Assembly (NCBI GenBank): GCA_030765605.1
Contig: JAVCCG010000119.1
Location: forward strand, 78,595-142,594
Length of the DNA stretch: 64,000 bases
Reading direction: 5' to 3'
From: Candidatus Alcyoniella australis
GTDB lineage: Bacteria; Lernaellota; Lernaellaia; JAVCCG01; Alcyoniellaceae
Each line of letters starts with the position of its first letter. Position 1 is the stretch's first letter. A program made the translations under genes and the position numbers. Below the pieces are notes generated by a model. That model was not told the DNA's origin and made no database searches. It saw only the letters and a list, made by a program, of their open reading frames with translations. This document shows, piece by piece, positions 44,289 through 54,041 of the stretch.

Positions 44289-44324
44289 GGCGGGAAGGTA
44301 AATGGGGCTTCCCGCCATTTTTTT
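44289..44324 (+). terminator. Rho-independent terminator
   Basis: GGCGGGAAG pairs perfectly with CTTCCCGCC across a ten-base loop and is followed by seven T. It lies 43 bases after the lipoprotein stop and isolates it from the glycosyltransferase operon. Confidence 0.88.
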
Positions 44325-44425: not shown

Positions 44426-46267
44426 ATGCGGGCTAGGCTGATCGACCTGCCGTTCGTGCTGCTGGCGTTGGTGTTGGGGCTGATCGCCTATTGGCCGGCG
44501 CTGCACGGCGAACTGGTCTACGACGACATTCTGGTTTACGGCGAGAACAGCATGATCGCCGATGGCGACAACCTGTCGCAATTGTTCAGCCCGCAATACT
44601 TCAGCGCGGCCGGGGAGAGCACCTACCGACCGCTGCTCACGCTGAGCTATTTTTGCGACTACGCGATCTGGGGCAACGCGGCGTTCGGGCCGCGTCTGAC
44701 CAACCTGTTGCTGCACCTGCTGGCCGCCACGCTGGTGGTCGCCACCCTGCGCCGGGTCGGGTATCTGGGCCGCGCCGCGGCCTGGTGCGGCGGACTGTTG
44801 TTTCTGCTGCATCCGCTGGCCGTGGAGAGCGTGGCCAGCGTGGGCAACCGCGACGAGGCGCTGATCTGCTGCATCTATCTGCTGGCGGTGCTGCTCTTCC
44901 AGTCCCAGGCGCACAGCCCGGCGGCCCGGGCTGCCAAATATTTCGGCGTGGTAGCGCTGTTTCTGGCCGGTCTGTTCGTAATGGAGATCATCGTCACACT
45001 GCCCGCGGCCCTGGTTTTGATCAGCCTGCTTGATCGGCGGCAGGAGCGCCGCGCGGCGGACGCCTGGCAGCGGGCGCTGATCGACAGCATGGCGCTGTGG
45101 ATCGTGGCTTTGATCTACCTGCTGGGCATTCGCTCGATGCTTACCCAGGACATCGGCGGCGACCCGCTGCTGGACCGTGGCGGGAGCCTGGGGCTGCTGG
45201 CGACAATGCCCGGTGTGTTTCTAAGCTACGTGCGGATGGTGTTTTGGCCCACGGGGCTGGCGGCCGATTATTTTCGTCCGATCCTCAGTCTGGGCGACGT
45301 GCGCGCCTGGGGACCGCTGCTTTGCTGGCTGGCGCTGGCGGCCTGGACCGTGCGCGCGGTGCTGCGTCGCGATCGACGGGCGCTGGTCCCGGCGTTGTTC
45401 GCGGTGACCATTGCTCCGGTCTCGCAGATCGTGCCGTTCTGGGTGCTGATGGCCGACCGCTATCTTTATCTGCCGATGATCCCGCTGATCGGCCTGGCGG
45501 TTTGGCTGGCGCAGCAGCTCACTGCGCTGGTGAGTCTGCCGCGGGCGCGCTTTCGTCTGCGCCTGGCCCTGGTCGTCGTGGCGCTGATCGCATTGGGCTC
45601 GCTGACCTTTGTGCGCGCCGGGCTGTGGGGCGACAACCAGAAGCTGTGGGCCGACACCGTGAGCAAGCAGCCGCAGAGCGCCAAGGCACGCTTTAATTAC
45701 GCCTACGGCCTGCGCGTCCAGGGAAAGCTCGATCGCGCGTCCGAGCAGTACCTGGTGGCATTGGGGCTCGGCGGCCCGGACTCCAACGAGCTGGCGCATT
45801 TGGCCGATACCTTGTCCCAATTGGGCGAGCAGCAGCGCGCCGCACAGCTGATCCGCGACGGGCTGGCGCTGTGGCCCGCGAACGAAAAGCTGCGGGTGAT
45901 GCTGGCGTTGAACCTGCTCAACTCCGGTCAAATTCAGCAGGCCCGGCTGCTGCTCAATCCCGAGGCCCGGCGGCCGACGCGCTCGGTCAAGCTGCTCGAG
46001 GTGCTGCTGCTGTGGGCGATGCTCGAACGCGAGCCGGAGTACCTGGCGGACTACTCCCGGCGTCTGCTCGAGCTCGATCCGGGCAACAGCATGTATCACC
46101 AGGTGTTCGGCCATCTGCATCAACGTGCCGGACAAAATGCGCAGGCGGCGCTGGACTACTTTCTGGCCTACCGTAACGCCGAGACCGACACCGTGCGCCA
46201 GCAGGCCTGCAACCGGCTGATGAACCTGCGCTCCGACCGCGGGACAATCCATGGCTGCGACCCCTAA
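44426..46267 (+). CDS. TMTC-like GT-C glycosyltransferase with TPR tail (1)
   Basis: 613-aa polytopic membrane protein. The first lumenal/periplasmic loop has the acidic pair LVYDDILVYGENSMI, followed by YRPLLTLSYFCDYAIWG and GPRLTNLLLHLLAATLV, typical of TMTC/DUF1736 proteins. LFLLHPLAVESVASVGNRDE and MADRYLYLPMIPLIGLAVWL are further hallmarks. About ten membrane helices end near residue 395; the rest is TPR-like (FNYAYGLRVQGKLDRASEQYLVALGLGG). Eukaryotic TMTC1-4 transfer mannose from dolichol-phosphate-mannose to proteins; the bacterial acceptor is unknown. It is the first gene of a coupled six-gene set and overlaps the next gene by 17 bases. Confidence 0.85.
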   Translation: MRARLIDLPFVLLALVLGLIAYWPALHGELVYDDILVYGENSMIADGDNLSQLFSPQYFSAAGESTYRPLLTLSYFCDYAIWGNAAFGPRLTNLLLHLLAATLVVATLRRVGYLGRAAAWCGGLLFLLHPLAVESVASVGNRDEALICCIYLLAVLLFQSQAHSPAARAAKYFGVVALFLAGLFVMEIIVTLPAALVLISLLDRRQERRAADAWQRALIDSMALWIVALIYLLGIRSMLTQDIGGDPLLDRGGSLGLLATMPGVFLSYVRMVFWPTGLAADYFRPILSLGDVRAWGPLLCWLALAAWTVRAVLRRDRRALVPALFAVTIAPVSQIVPFWVLMADRYLYLPMIPLIGLAVWLAQQLTALVSLPRARFRLRLALVVVALIALGSLTFVRAGLWGDNQKLWADTVSKQPQSAKARFNYAYGLRVQGKLDRASEQYLVALGLGGPDSNELAHLADTLSQLGEQQRAAQLIRDGLALWPANEKLRVMLALNLLNSGQIQQARLLLNPEARRPTRSVKLLEVLLLWAMLEREPEYLADYSRRLLELDPGNSMYHQVFGHLHQRAGQNAQAALDYFLAYRNAETDTVRQQACNRLMNLRSDRGTIHGCDP

Positions 46268-47957
46268 CCGCGGCCGGACCCTCGTTGCGACGCTGTTCTG
46301 CGTCCTGGTCTGCGCGGCGACGCTGCTGGCCTACTCCGAGAAGCCGCTGCACCCGTTTCAGTTCGACGACGAGGTGTTCATTCTCGGCGAACCCTCGATC
46401 CGCAGCCTTTCCAACGTGCCGCGAATGTTCGCGGTCGACGCGCACCTGCTCTATCGGCCGTTGCGCCAGACGCTCTATGCGCTGACCGTGCATTGGGCCG
46501 GGTTCGAGCCGGCCGCGTTTCACTGGGTCGGATTGGCCCTGCATTTGCTGGCCTGCCTGGCGCTGGCGCCGATCGGCAACAGCCTGCTGGGATCGAGGCG
46601 CGCCGGGCTTTACGCCGCGGCCCTGGCCGCGTTGCACCCGGTGCGTAGCGACCGCGTGGCCAACATCACCGGCAGCTTCGATTTGCTGGCCCCGGTTCTG
46701 GCGCTGTGGGGGCTGGCCTTTTGGCTGGCCGCGTTGCGCGATCCCGAACGCTCGAACCGGCTGCGCGCCGTGGCGTTGCCGCTGCTGGGCTGCGGGCTGC
46801 TCGCCGGCGAGGAGGCGCTGGCCGTGGTGCTGGTCGCCGCGCTCGCCTGGTGGTGGCTTGCGCCGCGAAGCGATCAGGGCCGCGACACCCTGCGTCGCCT
46901 CGAAGATGTGCTGCCCTTGGCGCTGCTGCTCGCCGCGTACCTCGCCCTGCGCACCGTTGTGTTGGGCCAGGTCGGCCGGGCGCCGCTACCGGCCCAGGGC
47001 CCCGCGCCGATCTGGTCGTTCGGCGTCTACTTCTGGCGCTACGTGCGGCTGATCCTCGTTCCCAGCGGCCTGAGCGTGGCCTATCCCGAGCGGGCGCTGG
47101 CCTTGAACGAGCCGTGGGTGATGATCGGTTGGTCCGCGATGCTGGCGGCGGCGCTGGCCTGGATTTTATGGCTGCGCCAACGGGCTGTGGCCGTGGTGCT
47201 GATGCTCTGGGGCCTGCTGGCCATAGCGCCGTTTTGCCAACTGCTGCCCTCGGGCACGCCGTTCGCCGAACGCTACGTCTACAACGCGCTGGCGCCCGCG
47301 GCGCTGGCCGCGGGCTGGGTCCTGGCGCGGTTGACCCGGCATGGCGGGGCGCGTCGCGTCCTGGGCCTATTGCTGTTTTTTACGCTGTTGCTGGTCTACG
47401 GCCTGGGCACGTTCGAGCGCGTCAAGGTCTGGCGCGGCCCGCAAACCCTGTGGTCCGACGCGGTGTCCAAGCAGCCCGGCGCGTATTTGGCGCGGCTTAA
47501 TCACGGCAACCAGCTGCGCGACTCGGGCGACCTGGACGCGGCCCGCGCGCAGTTCGCCGTGGCCGTGGCCCTGGATCCCAACGATTCGCGCGGTCGGATC
47601 AACCTGGGGAACGTGCAATACAGGCTTGGCGAGCTTCAGGCGGCGCAGGCGCAGTTCCTGGTTGCGCTGGACGCTGACTACGATTCAGTGGGCGCGCGAG
47701 TGGGCCTGGCCAGCACCTTTGTCAGCGCCAGACGCTACAACGAGGCTCTGGAGATGATCGCGCCGGTGTTACGCGATGACCCCGATAATCTTGCCGCCCT
47801 GTTGGTGCTCGGCTATATTAGCAGCATTAAAGGGGAATACGGCCAGGCGATCGAGGTCTATCAACGGGCGCTGGAGTTGTGCAAAGATCCGGTCCAAGTC
47901 CGGGTCATCGGCCGGAACATTTCCACTTTGCGCAGTAAACAAGGGGTTGCGCCGTGA
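46251..47957 (+). CDS. TMTC-like GT-C glycosyltransferase with TPR tail (2)
   Basis: 568-aa paralogue of the preceding protein. The acidic pair is FQFDDEVFILGEPSIRSL; YRPLRQTLYALTVHWAG, FHWVGLALHLLACLAL, ALHPVRSDRVANITGSFDLL and PFAERYVYNALAPAALAAGW follow. After ~ten helices, residues ~395-560 contain about four TPR repeats (LNHGNQLRDSGDLDAARAQFAVAVALDPNDSRGRINLGNVQ). The two paralogues have clearly diverged, which suggests different donors or acceptors. The 3' end overlaps the GT2 gene by four bases (GTGA). Confidence 0.84.
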   Translation: MAATPNRGRTLVATLFCVLVCAATLLAYSEKPLHPFQFDDEVFILGEPSIRSLSNVPRMFAVDAHLLYRPLRQTLYALTVHWAGFEPAAFHWVGLALHLLACLALAPIGNSLLGSRRAGLYAAALAALHPVRSDRVANITGSFDLLAPVLALWGLAFWLAALRDPERSNRLRAVALPLLGCGLLAGEEALAVVLVAALAWWWLAPRSDQGRDTLRRLEDVLPLALLLAAYLALRTVVLGQVGRAPLPAQGPAPIWSFGVYFWRYVRLILVPSGLSVAYPERALALNEPWVMIGWSAMLAAALAWILWLRQRAVAVVLMLWGLLAIAPFCQLLPSGTPFAERYVYNALAPAALAAGWVLARLTRHGGARRVLGLLLFFTLLLVYGLGTFERVKVWRGPQTLWSDAVSKQPGAYLARLNHGNQLRDSGDLDAARAQFAVAVALDPNDSRGRINLGNVQYRLGELQAAQAQFLVALDADYDSVGARVGLASTFVSARRYNEALEMIAPVLRDDPDNLAALLVLGYISSIKGEYGQAIEVYQRALELCKDPVQVRVIGRNISTLRSKQGVAP

Positions 47958-48634
47958 AGCTGTCGATATTGATGCCGGTGTTCAACGAGCGCAATACGAT
48001 CAGCGAGATAGTCAAGCGTGTGCTCGATACTCCGTGGGAAAAGGAACTGATCATTGTCGACGACGGCTCGGACGACGGCACTCGCGAGATCCTGCAGCAG
48101 ATCGACGGCGACGAGCGCGTGCGGCTGATCCTGCACGACCGCAACCGCGGCAAGGGAGCGGCCGTGCGTACGGCGATCGCCGAGTCCACGGGCGATATCT
48201 GTCTGATTCAGGACGCCGACCTGGAGTACGATCCGCGCGACTACGAACAGCTGATCGCGCCGATCATCGAGAAGCGCGCCGACGTGGTCTACGGCTCGCG
48301 GTTTCTCGGCCCGCACCGCGCGTTCCTGTTTTGGCACAAGTTGGGCAACTGGATGCTGACCCAGATTACGAACATCCTGTTCAACACGATCCTCACCGAC
48401 ATGGAGACCTGCTATAAGGCGTTCCGCGCCGACCTGCTGCGCAGCCTGCCGCTGACCGAGGACGGATTCGAGATCGAGCCCGAGCTGACCGCCAAGGTCT
48501 TCAAACGCGGGGCGCGGGTGTTCGAGGTGCCGATCAGCTATTCGGGACGCGACTTTGACGAGGGCAAGAAGATCACCTGGCGTCACGGGTTCACCGCGCT
48601 GTGGGCGTTGTTTAAATATCGCTTTAGGGACTGA
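47954..48634 (+). CDS. GT2 polyprenyl-phosphate glycosyltransferase (DPM1-like), soluble form
   Basis: 226-aa GT-A fold enzyme starting at GTG 47954. LSILMPVFNERNTISEIVKRVL, IIVDDGSDDGTREIL, NRGKGAAVRTAIAESTGDICLIQDADLEYDP (DxD metal site) and the DMETCYKAFRAD segment match dolichol/polyprenyl-phosphate mannosyl- or glucosyl-transferases. It has no membrane helix, as in the short DPM1 forms. It should load a sugar from a nucleotide donor onto undecaprenyl phosphate for the GT-C enzymes encoded next to it. Confidence 0.92.
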   Translation: MKLSILMPVFNERNTISEIVKRVLDTPWEKELIIVDDGSDDGTREILQQIDGDERVRLILHDRNRGKGAAVRTAIAESTGDICLIQDADLEYDPRDYEQLIAPIIEKRADVVYGSRFLGPHRAFLFWHKLGNWMLTQITNILFNTILTDMETCYKAFRADLLRSLPLTEDGFEIEPELTAKVFKRGARVFEVPISYSGRDFDEGKKITWRHGFTALWALFKYRFRD

Positions 48635-48637
48635 GTG

Positions 48638-49573
48638 ATGAAACTGGTAATCCAGATCCCCTGTTTCAACGAGGAGCCCACATTGCCGGTGACCCTCGAT
48701 GCCCTGCCCACGCAGGTCGAGGGGTTCGACGAGCTGGCCGTGCTGGTGCTCGACGACGGCTCGACCGACGGCACCCGGCGCGTGGCCGAACAATCCGCGC
48801 GCGTCGATTTCGTGCTCTGCGCGCCGCGCAACCGCGGGCTGGCCCGCACCTTCGCCGCCGGGCTCGAACAGGCACGGGCCATGGGCGCGGACGTGATCGT
48901 CAACATCGACGCGGACAACCAGTACGAGGCCGCAGCCATCGACCGGCTGTGCGCGCCGATCCTGCGTGGTGAGGCCGACATCGTGGTCGGCTGCCGCCGG
49001 ATGGAGGCGATCCCGCACTTCTCGGGTCTCAAGCGCCGCCTGCAACGCTGGGGCTCCGCGGTGGTGCAGACCCTCTCGGGCACCGACGTGCCCGACGTCA
49101 CCAGCGGGTTCCGCGCGTTTTCCCGCAACGCCGCGAGCCGCCTGTTCGTGCACTCGGACTTCACCTACACTATCGAAACCCTGATTCAGGCCGGACGCCA
49201 AGGGCTGGTCGTGGCGCACGTGAGCGTGGGAACCAATCCGCCGCTACGGCCCAGCCGATTGTTCCGCGGTAACGCAAGCTACGTGCTGCGTTCGATTGCG
49301 ACCATGGCGCGGATCTACACCCTCTACCAGCCGTTGCGCGTGTTCAGCGCCATCGGCGGCGTGCTGTTCGTCTGGGGCGGCGCGATCGGCGTGCGCTTTT
49401 TGTACTACTACCTACAGGGCCAGGGCGACGGCAAGATCCAGTCCTTGATTTTGGCCGCCGTGCTGATCATCCTCGGATTCAACACCGCGGTGCTCGGCGT
49501 GCTCTCCGATCTGCTGGCCGCCAACCGCAGGCTGCTCGAGGAGAATCTGCACCGGCTGGACCGCGATCAGTGA
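48638..49573 (+). CDS. GT2 polyprenyl-phosphate glycosyltransferase with two C-terminal membrane helices
   Basis: 311-aa GtrB/ArnC-like enzyme; ATG at 48638, with a GTG one codon upstream. LVIQIPCFNEEPTLPVTLDALP, VLVLDDGSTDGTRRVAEQ, NRGLARTFAAGLEQARAMGADVIVNIDADNQYEAA (DxD) and VTSGFRAFSRNAA are family blocks. Two membrane helices near residues 230-255 and 265-290 anchor it. It offers a second lipid-linked sugar donor next to the soluble DPM1-like enzyme. It overlaps the next start by four bases. Confidence 0.92.
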   Translation: MKLVIQIPCFNEEPTLPVTLDALPTQVEGFDELAVLVLDDGSTDGTRRVAEQSARVDFVLCAPRNRGLARTFAAGLEQARAMGADVIVNIDADNQYEAAAIDRLCAPILRGEADIVVGCRRMEAIPHFSGLKRRLQRWGSAVVQTLSGTDVPDVTSGFRAFSRNAASRLFVHSDFTYTIETLIQAGRQGLVVAHVSVGTNPPLRPSRLFRGNASYVLRSIATMARIYTLYQPLRVFSAIGGVLFVWGGAIGVRFLYYYLQGQGDGKIQSLILAAVLIILGFNTAVLGVLSDLLAANRRLLEENLHRLDRDQ

Positions 49574-50238
49574 GCAACCAGCTCCGCGCTCGTTCCATCT
49601 ATCGCCGGGCGCTGATCGTCGCGGCCGTCGTCGTCTCAATGCTGCTGATGGTCCTGGTGCGCGTCTGGCTGGGCGCGAGCAGCGAACTCGATCTCGCGCA
49701 GCGAGCCCGCGAGGCCGAAAACTACGACAGCGCGGTGCTGCACTACGCCCGCGCGCTGGAATGGTACGTCCCGGGCCATAGCGCAATGCAGGCCGCGCGT
49801 CAGGGCCTGATCGACGTTGCCCGCGAGGCTGAGCAGCTACAGGATCTGGCGTTGGCCCTCGACGCCTGGCGCTCGCTGCGCTCGGCGCTCTACGCCACGC
49901 GCAGCCTCTACACTCCAGGCGCCGAGTTGATCGTGCGTTGCGACCAGCGCATCGCCTATCTCGCCGCCCAGACCGACGAGTCGCGCGCATACCACCCCGA
50001 ACTCGACCTGGCCGGGCGCGAAGAACGCCTGCTGGGCTTATCCGAGCGCTTTGCCGAACCATCGCCGGGCCTGTCGCTGGTCGCTGTGCTCGGGTTCGCG
50101 CTGTGGGTGCTGGCCGCCGCGCTGTTCGTGCGTCGCGCATCGCAGCCGCAAGCGCGCGTCGGACCGCTTATCGTGCGTTGGGCGCCGCTGTTCGTTGCGG
50201 GCTACGGGCTTTGGTTGCTCGCGCTGTATTTCGCCTGA
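49570..50238 (+). CDS. Small membrane protein with TPR-like periplasmic domain
   Basis: 222-aa protein starting at a GTG that overlaps the preceding stop. An N-terminal membrane helix (ALIVAAVVVSMLLMVLVRVWL) is followed by ~110 helical residues with TPR-like spacing (AQRAREAENYDSAVLHYARALEWYVPGHSAMQAARQ) and two C-terminal helices (LVAVLGFALWVLAAALFV and RWAPLFVAGYGLWLLALYF). No family recognised. Its place inside the operon suggests a scaffold or accessory subunit of the glycosyltransferase set. Confidence 0.7.
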   Translation: MSNQLRARSIYRRALIVAAVVVSMLLMVLVRVWLGASSELDLAQRAREAENYDSAVLHYARALEWYVPGHSAMQAARQGLIDVAREAEQLQDLALALDAWRSLRSALYATRSLYTPGAELIVRCDQRIAYLAAQTDESRAYHPELDLAGREERLLGLSERFAEPSPGLSLVAVLGFALWVLAAALFVRRASQPQARVGPLIVRWAPLFVAGYGLWLLALYFA

Positions 50239-51992
50239 TGCAACCGGCGGGCCGCCTGCAGGCGCTGCTCGCCTGGGCGCTGACAACGCTGGTCGCACTG
50301 TGGGCGGCGCGCGGCTTTTTCACGGTCTACAGCGTCTACGGCCACTCCGCGGATCTGGACGTGGTGCGCGTGCTCGAGTACGGCCTGGCCCTGGCTCAGG
50401 GCGATCTCTACCCGCGCTGGGTCGAGCACACCTACCACTGCTTCGGCTCGCCGCTGTTTCATTTCTACGCGCCGCTGGCCTATTTCCCGGCGGGACTGGC
50501 AATGGCCGCGGGACTGCCGCTGTGGGCCGCAATTAAGCTACCGTTCGTACTGGCCTTCCTGCTCGCGGGCTGGGGCGCTTTCGCCCTGGGCTCGCGCCTG
50601 GGGTCGTGCTGGGCCGGATTGGCCTGCGCGGCCACGCTGTGCTTTGCCCCGTATTTTTTAATCGACGCCTACGTGCGCGCATCGCTGGCCGAGATGTGGG
50701 GCATCGCATTGGCGCCCTGGGCGCTGTGGGCCGTACTGCGCGTGCGGGAGGCCGGGGGCGTGCTGCCGCCAATCGTCCTGGCCCTGGTGATCGCGGCGAT
50801 CGCGCTGACGCACAACATCACGATCATGCTGCTGCTGCCGATCGTAATCATTGCCTGTCTGCTGTGGTGCGGGCCGCGACGCCTTAACGCGCTGGCCGGG
50901 GTCGGGCTGGGGTTGCTGCTCTCGGCGTTTTTCTGGCTGCCGGCGCTTTTAGAGCGCGGCCTGGTCTACGCCCGCGAGAACCTGACCCAGGGGCATTTCC
51001 ATTTCAGCAATCACTTTCTGCAACTCAAGCTATTGATCGCGCCGGAGTGGAGCCAGTGGCCGCCGCGTACGGTGGAGGCCGACGCGTTCGAGCTGGGCCT
51101 GGCCCAGGCCGGGTTGCTGGTGCTCGCACCGTTGTGCGCGCTGGCCCTGGGACGCGGACTGCGACAGGCCGGGCTGCTGCTGGCGGTCTGCCTGGGTTCG
51201 CTGTTGATGGTCGACGGTCTGAGCGAGCCGCTGTGGAGCAGCCTGCCGCTGTTGCCCTACGTGCAGTTTCCCTGGCGCTTCCTCGGCCTGTTCTGCTGGG
51301 CGATTGCCGCCCTGGCAGCCTGGCCCGCGCTGTGGATCGAGGACCGGCTGGGCGCACTGGGAGCCGCGGCCTGGGCCGTGGGCTGGAGCGTGATGCTGAT
51401 TGCGGTGCAGGGCGATGGCGTGGCCCCGCAATATCTGGCGCTGGACCAACAGACCGCACAGGAGATCGTGGCCGAGGATCGCGAGCAGCACGAGGCCAAC
51501 CTCGAGGCGGGCGGCGTGGACGTGGCCCGCTTCTGGTCGGCCGAACAGATGGTCTGGTTCAAGGCGCGCGGCACATCGTGGGACGATTTCCTGCCGCGCG
51601 GCGTGGCCCAAAATGTCTGCCTGTTCTGCGAGGACTACATCGACCCGGCGATGATCGACGCGGGCAGCGGCACGATTTTGCACTCGGCGCGCGGCAACTC
51701 CTGGGTCGAGGCGCTGGTGCGCGTCGAAACCGAGGCGACGTTGCGGCTGCACGTTTTCGACTTTCGCGGCTGGCAGGTGACGCTCGACGGCCGACCAAGC
51801 GAACATCGGCCGTACCCCGAGGTCGGCGACATCTCGCTACGCCTGGAACCCGGGGAACACCTGGTGCGCGCGAGCTTTAAGGGCAGCGGCCTGACGCGGC
51901 TTTGCAACGTAATCTCGATCGCCGCGCTACTGGCTATAATCGGAATGTTCCTATACGGGATGTTCAGGGGAAAACGGACCGACCCGCGATAG
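50238..51992 (+). CDS. PTPS-related/YfhO-like polytopic membrane protein, putative GT-C
   Basis: 584-aa membrane protein starting one base inside the preceding stop (TGATG). HSADLDVVRVLEYGLALAQGDLYPRWVEHTYHCFGSPLFHFYAPLAY is the first-loop signature of the 6-pyruvoyl-tetrahydropterin-synthase-related/YfhO membrane proteins (acidic pair, PRW, FY.P). About 11 helices follow (to ~residue 420), then a periplasmic beta-rich domain (VRVETEATLRLHVFDFRGWQVTLDGRP) and a last helix. By analogy with YfhO, a lipid-linked-sugar glycosyltransferase role at the periplasmic face is plausible. It is the last gene of the operon. Confidence 0.78.
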   Translation: MQPAGRLQALLAWALTTLVALWAARGFFTVYSVYGHSADLDVVRVLEYGLALAQGDLYPRWVEHTYHCFGSPLFHFYAPLAYFPAGLAMAAGLPLWAAIKLPFVLAFLLAGWGAFALGSRLGSCWAGLACAATLCFAPYFLIDAYVRASLAEMWGIALAPWALWAVLRVREAGGVLPPIVLALVIAAIALTHNITIMLLLPIVIIACLLWCGPRRLNALAGVGLGLLLSAFFWLPALLERGLVYARENLTQGHFHFSNHFLQLKLLIAPEWSQWPPRTVEADAFELGLAQAGLLVLAPLCALALGRGLRQAGLLLAVCLGSLLMVDGLSEPLWSSLPLLPYVQFPWRFLGLFCWAIAALAAWPALWIEDRLGALGAAAWAVGWSVMLIAVQGDGVAPQYLALDQQTAQEIVAEDREQHEANLEAGGVDVARFWSAEQMVWFKARGTSWDDFLPRGVAQNVCLFCEDYIDPAMIDAGSGTILHSARGNSWVEALVRVETEATLRLHVFDFRGWQVTLDGRPSEHRPYPEVGDISLRLEPGEHLVRASFKGSGLTRLCNVISIAALLAIIGMFLYGMFRGKRTDPR

Positions 51993-51998
51993 CCTTGG

Positions 51999-52598
51999 TT
52001 AGTTTTGCTGCTGTTGCAGCCAGGCCGCGGCGTCGGTTGCCAGGTCTTTTAGTTCGGGATGATCGGCCCAGAGCAGCAGGATCTGCTTATAGTCGTTGGC
52101 GATCAGCTCTTTGTGGCCGCGCAGGGAGAGCAGGCTCTTGGTGACCTCGATCCGCACCAGCCGAATGTTGACGTTTTGCGGGCAGGCGTTTACGCACTGG
52201 TCGATCACAGCGGCCGAGCGCGCGATCTGGCTAAGCTCGGCCGAGAGGTTGGTCTCGCTGCTCGAGCGCATGATCAGGCACGAGTTGTAATAGGCGCGGG
52301 CCTCCACATCGTCCCCATTGGTGTTCAGGTGCAATCTGAGCTGCTCGATGCATTCGCCTACGTAGCGTCCGCCCTGAAACTTGGCCAGGTTGTGCTGCAG
52401 GATGCCCGCCATGCGCACCGCCTGCTGATCGACGATCCAGTTCGGCTCGGAGACCAGCATCGCCAGCTCGACCCGCGCGTCCTGCCCATCGGGGTAAGGC
52501 GTGTAGCTGTAGCCGCATTCGGCGGCCAGAACGAGCGTCGATCCCGCGCAGAGCACAGCGAGGGTCAGGGTAATGCGTAGCAGATTCTTGATTTGCAT
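51999..52598 (-). CDS. Secreted helical-repeat hypothetical protein
   Basis: 199-aa protein with a cleavable signal (ITLTLAVLCAGSTLVLAAEC). The mature part is helical, with TPR-like or Sel1-like spacing and four Cys (ECGYS, GECIE, SCLIM, QCVNACPQNV). No family recognised. It starts 9 bases downstream of the GH5-like gene, so it belongs to the operon beginning at 57252. The 3' end lies only 6 bases from the convergent PTPS-related gene. Confidence 0.65.
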   Translation of the reverse strand: MQIKNLLRITLTLAVLCAGSTLVLAAECGYSYTPYPDGQDARVELAMLVSEPNWIVDQQAVRMAGILQHNLAKFQGGRYVGECIEQLRLHLNTNGDDVEARAYYNSCLIMRSSSETNLSAELSQIARSAAVIDQCVNACPQNVNIRLVRIEVTKSLLSLRGHKELIANDYKQILLLWADHPELKDLATDAAAWLQQQQN

Positions 52599-52607
52599 GG
52601 GCCGAGT

Positions 52608-54041
52608 CTAACGCAGTGGGCGTAAGGTGAGCCAGTGCAAGCTGAACTCCGGGTCGCTGCACACCAGCAGCCGTCCGCGCTGCTGGTCAAAGCGGGATTG
52701 GCCGTCGCCCAGCTGTACCTTGAAACCATCGGGGTACAGGCCCGCGGGCAGTACGATCTCGGTCAGTGCGTCCACGCCGGTCTCGCGCCATGTGACGTAA
52801 AATTTGGACTGGCCGATGTCGAACTGGAATTGGCACAGCTCGCCGGCCACTCGCGCGGGGTAGGGACGCGACAAGACGTCCGCCGCGGGCCGCTTTGCGC
52901 CATTGGTTCCGATCAGGCTGAAGTCCTCGTTGTTGTACAGCCGCTGTGAGGGGTTGAGGTCCCAGTAGAACCAATGCAGCAAGTAGCGGTCGGCCAGTGC
53001 GGCCGCGCTGTGACACAGCGCCTCCCCGTTGGTCGTGGTCGGCCGCACGCCCCAGGCGCAGAGCGATGCGGGCACTCCGCGCTCGTGGGCCGCTGACCAC
53101 AGGCAGGACAGGGCGCTGCGCAACGCGCCTCCGGACCAATCGTGCTCGTCGTTTAGCAGTACGTCCGAGTCGAAGTACGGCGCGCTGAGCACCAGGCCGG
53201 GCAGCTCCAGTTCGCTAAGCGCGGCGCGATCGCAGGCGCGGCGCAAATGCGGCGGCGCGAAAAACAGCAGCGCGTCGGGGTCGGCCCGGCGCAGGGCCAG
53301 GGCCTTGTCCACGTAGTAGTTCAAGAGCACGCCGTGGACAAACGCGTGATCGAGCGGCGCGGCGTAGGGCTGGGATTGCAGCTCGTAGCCCACCACGTTC
53401 TCGCGGTCCGCCAGCCGTTGAGCCAGCATCAGGTGGGCCGCCAGCTCTGATTGACGCAGCGCGGCATCGGCGTAGAACAGGCCGTAGGCCTCGATCACCT
53501 CGTCGCGCAAATAGTATAAGTACCAATCGTGCGGCGCTTCGCCCGCGAACGGCTCGACGCCCGCGGGCAGGGCCCACTGCGGCGCGCCCGCGCCCCACAG
53601 CGCGCGGCCGTAGAGCTGACTCTGCCAGTCGATCACCACCCACAGGCCGCGTTGGGCCGCGGCGTCGACCAGCGATTCGACCCTGGCCAGATAATCCTGG
53701 TCGTAGACTCCGGGCTGCGGCTCGACCGCCTCCCAGACCACGTTGATGCGGATCGCGTTGAGCCCCCAATCAAACAGCGGGTCCAGCCAGGCAACGTCGT
53801 CGAGCATGGCAAACGGCGGGACCAGTCCGGCGCTGCCCACGTTGACGCCGCGCAGCAGCACCTCGCGCCCCAGGGAGTCGCACAGCCGTTCGCCGCAGAC
53901 GTAAAGCGGTCCGGCCATCGAGCCCGCGGTCGGCTGCACAGCGACGTCGATCGGCTCGTCCTGGTCAAGCGGCGCATAGCCCTGAAAGCAGGCCGCGATC
54001 AGCACGGGCAACAGCAACGCCAGCAGCGCCCGCCGCCGCAT
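52608..54041 (-). CDS. GH5 endoglycoceramidase-like lipoprotein, catalytic residues lost
   Basis: 477-aa lipoprotein; ATG at 54041, one base inside the preceding stop. The lipobox is LIAAC (Cys18). Residues ~45-410 follow the endoglycoceramidase branch of GH5: GREVLLRGVNVGS, LNAIRINVVWEAVEPQPGVYD, RGLWVVIDWQSQLYG, GAPQWA, HWFYWDLNP and RPYPARVAGE. The acid/base NEP is SQP (Gln224), the nucleophile-bearing [GT]EFG is CAWG (Ala329), and the usual DMHQD is DWQSQ (138-142). The fold is kept but hydrolysis should be lost. A carbohydrate- or glycolipid-binding role is inferred. The C-terminal ~65 residues are a beta domain. Confidence 0.82.
   Translation of the reverse strand: MRRRALLALLLPVLIAACFQGYAPLDQDEPIDVAVQPTAGSMAGPLYVCGERLCDSLGREVLLRGVNVGSAGLVPPFAMLDDVAWLDPLFDWGLNAIRINVVWEAVEPQPGVYDQDYLARVESLVDAAAQRGLWVVIDWQSQLYGRALWGAGAPQWALPAGVEPFAGEAPHDWYLYYLRDEVIEAYGLFYADAALRQSELAAHLMLAQRLADRENVVGYELQSQPYAAPLDHAFVHGVLLNYYVDKALALRRADPDALLFFAPPHLRRACDRAALSELELPGLVLSAPYFDSDVLLNDEHDWSGGALRSALSCLWSAAHERGVPASLCAWGVRPTTTNGEALCHSAAALADRYLLHWFYWDLNPSQRLYNNEDFSLIGTNGAKRPAADVLSRPYPARVAGELCQFQFDIGQSKFYVTWRETGVDALTEIVLPAGLYPDGFKVQLGDGQSRFDQQRGRLLVCSDPEFSLHWLTLRPLR

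Follow-up and report, generated by a model that had tools for sequence, protein, structure and literature searches.

TMTC1-4 (CAZy family GT105) are the O-mannosyltransferases of animal cadherins, and TMEM260 (CAZy family GT117) is that of plexins. In animals, TMTC and TMEM260 initiate protein O-mannosylation, and the tetratricopeptide repeats (TPRs) are proposed to recruit the acceptor (PMC11292533). In the actinobacterial Ppm1-Pmt system, a polyprenol phosphate sugar synthase is combined with a GT-C transferase working outside the membrane (PMC6593405). TMTC-like proteins of bacteria are in themselves no novelty, since full-length prokaryotic homologues have been reported (PMC7801869). Here we describe a six-gene operon (G1 to G6) of Candidatus Alcyoniella australis, located in a stretch of 64,000 nucleotides (hereafter the window) on contig 119 of a 4.29 Mb genome that is 98% complete. 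The operon encodes two TMTC-like GT-C membrane proteins with TPR tails (G1 and G2), two family 2 glycosyltransferases (GT2) resembling polyprenyl-phosphate sugar synthases (G3 and G4), a small membrane protein (G5), and a YfhO-like GT-C protein (G6). It very probably serves lipid-linked glycosylation in the periplasm, and we lean with some caution toward a multi-component transmembrane glycosylation system acting on exported proteins. The novelty lies in the operon context of this system, and the coupling of bacterial TMTC homologues to lipid-sugar synthases and TMEM260-like enzymes appears to be new.

Layout of the six-gene operon

Open reading frame (ORF) reading placed all six genes on the forward strand between positions 44426 and 51992 of the window, and a dicodon gene caller independently picked the same six frames. 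Neighboring genes overlap by 17 (G1/G2), 4 (G2/G3), 4 (G4/G5) and 1 (G5/G6) bases, and the G3/G4 joint has a gap of 0 or 3 bp depending on the start codon of G4. Overlaps and contacts of this size make translational coupling across the operon likely. The most likely start of G6 is the ATG at 50238 rather than the longer mechanical ORF start. An intrinsic terminator-like hairpin lies upstream (Table 1); a pattern scan overlooked it because its loop is 10 nt long. The downstream neighbor (51999-52598) is convergent and lies 6 bp from the operon end. An earlier, sequence-only reading of this stretch had described six coupled genes with overlaps or contacts of 1-17 bases, bounded by a terminator upstream and a convergent operon downstream, and the ORFs, the gene caller and the hairpin bear out that description. 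Its remark that no polymerase or ligase is present also stands: ORF reading and Pfam revealed no polysaccharide polymerase, ligase or sugar-nucleotide genes within the six-gene operon.

TMTC-like proteins G1 and G2

Pfam TPR matches were found in both G1 and G2. The structure model of G2, with a predicted local distance difference test score (pLDDT) of 92.6 and a predicted template modeling score (pTM) of 0.90 from a 29-row alignment, divides into two parts, a membrane domain of GT-C type and a tail of TPRs. With VIA-align on the model, residues 2-400 matched STT3 (Z 22.8, 4.1 Å, 326 residues) as well as Pmt1-Pmt2 (Z 20.6), ArnT (20.0) and PglB (20.0), and residues 409-568 aligned with TPR proteins. 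The Foldseek ranking was taken up by TPR proteins, and the GT-C part was resolved by VIA-align. The order of a GT-C fold and then TPR repeats is seen in the model for G2 and follows from homology and the TPR matches for G1.

The TMTC motifs were read in a 29-sequence alignment against the human TMTC motifs (PMC7801869). The DD pair of M1 in the first outer loop is present in G2 (D39 and D40) and in G1 (YDD), and its first Asp is invariant in the 29 sequences. The YRP motif is retained in register in both proteins. M7 (ERxxY) reads ERYVY in G2 and DRYLY in G1, with Asp replacing Glu. At M3 (RxD, or RxE in TMTC3), the RDE of G1 fits, and the SFD of G2 retains the Asp only, the Arg being lost. 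At M4 (KE(T/Q)xxT), where G2 reads GEEALAV and G1 reads MEIIVTL, the Glu is retained and the donor-phosphate Lys is lost in both. Within the class, other TMTC-like paralogues keep the KE at this position, as do two Gemmatimonadota proteins, and the G2 clade has its own M4 variant, (S/G)EE, conserved in most members. We named G1 and G2 TMTC-like, not TMTC, because the M4 Lys is lost. Motif positions and fold make them TMTC homologues whose donor-phosphate site is changed and which do not qualify as members in every respect. The earlier identification of two TMTC-like proteins with TPR tails is upheld by these motif positions, the fold and the Pfam TPRs. The Pfam TMTC model PF08409 gave no match in G1, G2 or 31 genomes, a search that is uninformative because none of the 14 control genomes matched either.

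Relatives were searched in six genomes of the same class, belonging to two other families: f2 (G001, G003 and G005) and f3 (G002, G004 and G006); the window genome is G000. In the maximum-likelihood tree, G2 groups with one protein each from G001, G002, G003, G004 and G006, with support of 93/91, slightly below the strong-support mark. A second G004 copy falls outside the G2 group (100/97), and G1 belongs to a clade separate from that of G2 (100/99).

Membrane proteins G5 and G6

G6 scored 33.1 bits against PF10131, whose cut-off is 26.4. Its profile found no match in a sequence search of the PDB, and the fold was assigned from the model instead (pLDDT 86.8, pTM 0.90), which matches Pmt4 (Z 20.0) and STT3 (Z 19.5), with ArnT also among the good matches. 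Model and topology place a C-terminal beta domain between the last two transmembrane (TM) helices. In the first outer loop, GHS and D41 are invariant in 12 orthologues. With the family score, the modeled GT-C fold and the large outer loop all present, G6 is classed as a PTPS-related/YfhO-like GT-C protein, as the sequence-only reading had proposed. The structural check suggested there, a GT-C fold with an acidic outer loop, was passed by the models of both G2 and G6. The same reading called G5 a TPR-like membrane protein. The membrane topology holds; the TPR part is weak, with sub-threshold matches only and no Pfam family above cut-off.

Lipid-sugar synthase candidates G3 and G4

The best solved relative of the G3 profile is the dolichyl-phosphate-mannose (Dol-P-Man) synthase (DPMS) of P. 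furiosus (5MLZ; 5e-21), followed by ArnC. The G4 profile likewise found Dol-P-Man synthase first (4e-17) and then ArnC (7e-16). The DxD motif (DAD) and the equivalent of DPMS Arg117 are retained in G3 and G4. Together with PF00535, these matches suggest that both are polyprenyl-phosphate-type GT2 enzymes, G3 soluble and G4 anchored, in line with the earlier assignment. The phosphate ligands of DPMS are Arg117, Arg131 and Ser135 (PMC5526996). Of these three marks of a bona fide DPMS, only Arg117 is conserved in G3 (R116). The Arg131 and Ser135 positions are occupied by H128 and N132, invariant in six orthologues, and the Gln93 position by Glu. Given these His/Asn and Glu replacements, the sugar cannot be read from the likeness to DPMS.

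Close relatives of G3 are spread over many phyla, including Chloroflexota, Acidobacteriota and Gemmatimonadota. Among 80 named loci, a G3-like gene stands beside a TMTC-like gene in two Gemmatimonadota (Table 1), so GT2-TMTC coupling exists outside this class too. Some large membrane protein is the neighbor of the G3-like gene at 16 of the 80 loci, and ten such neighbors were scanned, yielding five PMT_2 proteins and one DUF2079 protein. These varied GT-C neighbors suggest that G3-type enzymes serve several GT-C families.

Conservation and recurring couplings

One clear orthologue of G4 is present in all six relatives (56-58% identity), and G3 has orthologues in five of them (62-68% identity). 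Each relative carries one G5 orthologue and two or three G6 relatives. The idea that the six genes form one conserved set, put forward in the sequence-only reading, had to be abandoned: their order is kept in none of the six relatives, orthologues of G1, G5 and G6 lie away from G2 in every one, and only G2-G3 and partly G4 stay together. Judged by the refuting condition named in that reading, orthologues that never cluster in relatives, most members of the set fail. The G2-G3 adjacency is kept throughout family f2 despite a G2 identity of about 33%, the G005 copy of G2 being broken into fragments. G4 comes after G2-G3 in G001, and likewise in G005 with one small gene inserted. In family f3, G2, G3 and G4 are dispersed. 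G4 adjoins a GT4 glycosyltransferase in all six relatives, and this partner gene has no clear orthologue in the window genome (best 34% over part of its length). The neighbor families c12, c13, c36 and c6 showed no Pfam family above cut-off.

The gene before G2 in G001 and G003 encodes a TMEM260-like GT-C protein (PF11028; 3.8e-20 in G003), and in both genomes 4-bp overlaps link the TMEM260-like gene to G2 and G2 to G3. In G005, a TMEM260-like match lies immediately upstream of the broken G2. The three f3 genomes have a TMEM260-like gene directly 3' of the G6 orthologue, with 4-bp overlaps in the G004 locus. The window's six-gene operon does not include such a gene; elsewhere in the window genome, on C92, there are overlaps between a TMEM260-like gene and both a GT2 gene and a G5 paralogue. 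Differing coupled combinations thus bring together G2, G3, members of the G5 family, G6 and TMEM260-like genes again and again, which points to a single functional system whose genes have been shuffled, not to six unrelated genes. With a PF11028 gene coupled to a G2 or G6 orthologue in relatives, the case for a connection with animal-type O-mannosyltransferases has grown stronger than in the sequence-only reading. We found no literature on DUF2723.

Proposed mechanism and alternative explanations

Sequence data and structure prediction show the gene layout, the GT-C and GT2 folds, the conserved motifs and the repeated coupling with TMEM260-like GT-C genes. We infer a scheme in which G3 and G4 would move a sugar from a nucleotide sugar onto polyprenyl phosphate at the cytoplasmic face, and a flippase, not recognizably of the GtrA family, would turn the lipid-sugar outward. 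The GT-C enzymes G1, G2 and G6 would then transfer the sugar in the periplasm by means of acidic residues in their first outer loop, residues that are invariant or near-invariant in G2 and G6. Outside the membrane, the acceptor would most likely be held by the TPR tails of the two TMTC-like proteins and perhaps by G5. An exported protein, O-glycosylated on Ser/Thr, is a more probable acceptor than a lipid or polysaccharide. Proteins are favored because animal TMTC and TMEM260 start protein O-mannosylation, TPRs are thought to recruit the acceptor, and the operon is without polysaccharide genes.

Several observations weigh against this scheme. To our knowledge, none of the enzymes in this subfamily has had its function tested. 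The GtrA-family flippase (PF04138) was found in none of the 7 genomes, while 7 of 14 controls matched; a flippase of another type is possible. The six-gene order is not conserved, G4 keeps company with a GT4 gene in the relatives, the donor-phosphate Lys is missing from G1 and G2 and the M3 Arg from G2, and two of the DPMS phosphate ligands are replaced in G3. The window genome has an unusually large GT-C complement, with 66 places matching PMT_2 (PF13231), 57 of them above the family cut-off, which raises the rate of chance neighbors, so some of the couplings may be due to chance. YfhO, the best-studied kin of G6, works in teichoic acid glycosylation (PMC5836110). The same enzymes could accordingly form a lipid-linked sugar system whose acceptor is a glycolipid, lipid A or the lipopolysaccharide core, or a surface polysaccharide, as for ArnT, GtrABC and CsbB-YfhO, the TPR tails recruiting partner proteins or an assembly complex instead of protein acceptors. 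This is possible but not likely. In structure, G2 and G6 both match ArnT well, ArnC matches G3 and G4, YfhO-type enzymes serve teichoic acid (PMC5836110; PMC8035078), and the GT4 gene beside G4 would fit glycan assembly. However, the operon contains no polymerase, ligase or sugar-nucleotide genes, and the TPR-tailed TMTC/TMEM260 relatives of known function act on proteins (PMC11292533).

The operon might also hold two or three independent modules that share a transcript: one module would be the donor-transferase pair G2-G3, G4 would stem from a GT4-linked pathway, and G1, G5 and G6 would be local additions. The orthologues of G1, G5 and G6 located elsewhere in every relative, the different clades of G1 and G2, and the tie of G4 to a GT4 gene that the window operon lacks would agree with this arrangement. 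We nevertheless consider it unlikely, as the same families are recoupled elsewhere (TMEM260-like genes with G2-G3, with G6, and with a GT2 gene and a G5 paralogue) and one chemical pathway accommodates all parts; such modules would in any case be compatible with the explanation we prefer. Both G1 and G2 are without the M4 Lys and G2 also without the M3 Arg, while other TMTC-like paralogues of the class retain KE. This could instead mean that G1 and/or G2 are catalytically dead and serve as TPR scaffolds for G6 or another GT-C protein. This seems very improbable: the DD pair, the M4 Glu and the Arg and Tyr of M7 are retained in both, and the (S/G)EE variant conserved in most of the G2 clade looks like changed specificity, not decay. 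Transmembrane glycosylation of exported proteins stays the preferred reading. A bolder version of it, which we regard as speculative and rather improbable, is that the class runs animal-style protein O-glycosylation, with TMTC-like and TMEM260-like transferases sharing one dedicated lipid-sugar synthase in a single operon, a flippase of unrecognized type and G5 as a new small membrane subunit, directed at Ig-like or Asp-stalked surface proteins.

Secreted proteins and features of the locus

Class relatives encode secreted proteins that carry an Asp-rich stalk of DDDT or DDDA repeats and, after it, a Cys box (GGCGC or GCCGC, for example) at the C terminus (examples in Table 1). A simple rule flagged 21 of 772 complete called genes as having this arrangement, none of them in the window. 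Together, stalk and box look like a C-terminal tag for attachment or sorting that has so far gone unrecognized. The suggestion of the sequence-only reading that Asp-stalk lipoproteins are the acceptors is a guess. In all three f3 genomes, a neighbor of the G2 orthologue is a Cys-rich lipoprotein-like gene whose Asp-rich tail is mostly of the DDDT type. This gene was considered as a source of a dedicated acceptor and rejected: in each f2 genome it occurs as a single copy away from G2, and it was not found in the window genome. The second coupled glycosyltransferase set of the window genome, on C92, adjoins a 1337-amino-acid secreted protein with Big_5, subtilase and FG-GAP domains. The convergent operon downstream of G6 holds a GH5 cellulase-family protein.

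Table 1. Positions of the operon genes and of the other features discussed (window coordinates unless a locus is named)
Feature	Position	Strand	Description
Intrinsic terminator-like hairpin	44289..44324	+	Perfect 9-bp GC-rich stem GGCGGGAAG/CTTCCCGCC, 10-nt loop, then T run ATTTTTTT; upstream of operon; read directly
G1	44426..46267	+	TMTC-like GT-C membrane protein, C-terminal TPRs; TPR_17 27.0 bits; 10 hydrophobic segments; YDD, YRP, DRxxY; own clade in tree
G2	46251..47957	+	TMTC-like GT-C membrane protein, C-terminal TPRs; model pLDDT 92.6; structural matches; motifs
G3	47954..48634	+	Soluble GT2, polyprenyl-phosphate sugar synthase-like; PF00535 1.9e-35
G4	48635 (GTG) or 48638 (ATG)..49573	+	GT2 resembling polyprenyl-phosphate sugar synthases, anchored by two C-terminal TM helices; PF00535 7.6e-22
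G5	49570..50238	+	Small membrane protein; outer, weakly TPR-like domain flanked by one TM helix on the N-terminal side and two on the C-terminal side; topology
G6	50238..51992	+	PTPS-related/YfhO-like GT-C membrane protein, outer C-terminal beta domain; PF10131 33.1 bits
GH5 cellulase-family protein	52608-54041	-	GH5 C-terminal domain, lipoprotein-like start
Cys-rich lipoprotein-like gene beside G2 orthologue	L040:6388-6861, L041:10621-11049, L042:10932-11513		Family f3
TMTC-like gene directly 3' of G3-like gene	L157:1783-4109, L180:8001-10336		Gemmatimonadota
Second coupled glycosyltransferase set	L070:9911-17117 (G000:C92)		Beside the 1337-amino-acid secreted protein
Asp-stalk and Cys-box proteins	L042:5334-9130, L040:8812-9411, L066:1142-2857, L072:11976-14054, L090:4270-5838		Examples from class relatives

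Implications

The couplings name candidate donor-making partners for the bacterial TMTC homologues and outline a minimal cassette of TMEM260-like, TMTC-like and GT2 genes for expression and assay. If protein glycosylation is the true function, it would represent a further route of O-glycosylation in bacteria, separate from both Pmt and the oligosaccharyltransferases, and would offer a simple model of two human enzyme families linked to disease. An animal-style pathway, if true, would have implications for how the eukaryotic TMTC and TMEM260 pathways arose. The apparent absence of GtrA from a class rich in GT-C proteins points to a so far unrecognized lipid-sugar flippase.

Comparison with known systems

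G1 and G2 resemble TMTC in having an N-terminal GT-C domain and then TPRs, with DD, YRP and (E/D)RxxY in register (motifs of PMC7801869). They differ from TMTC in the missing M4 Lys, for G2 also the missing M3 Arg, in a shorter TPR tail, and in belonging to a bacterial operon with GT2 genes. In the relatives, the TMEM260-like (PF11028) gene is an operon partner of G2-G3 or G6, and in the window genome such a gene is partnered with a G5 paralogue, whereas the window operon itself is without it. Like the GtrA-GtrB-GT-C and CsbB-GtcA-YfhO systems, the operon pairs a GT2 lipid-sugar synthase with a GT-C transferase, and the outer domain of G6 lies between the last two TM helices, as in YfhO (PMC5836110). 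Unlike these three-component systems, it was found with no GtrA-family flippase in the 7 genomes and has three GT-C proteins, two of them with TPRs. With the Dol-P-Man synthase 5MLZ, G3 and G4 share the DxD motif and the Arg117 equivalent, and G3 differs at Arg131/Ser135 (His/Asn) and Gln93 (Glu). As in Ppm1-Pmt, polyprenyl-phosphate sugar synthases are combined with GT-C transferases, but the transferases of this operon are TMTC-like and YfhO-like proteins with TPR or beta domains rather than Pmt.

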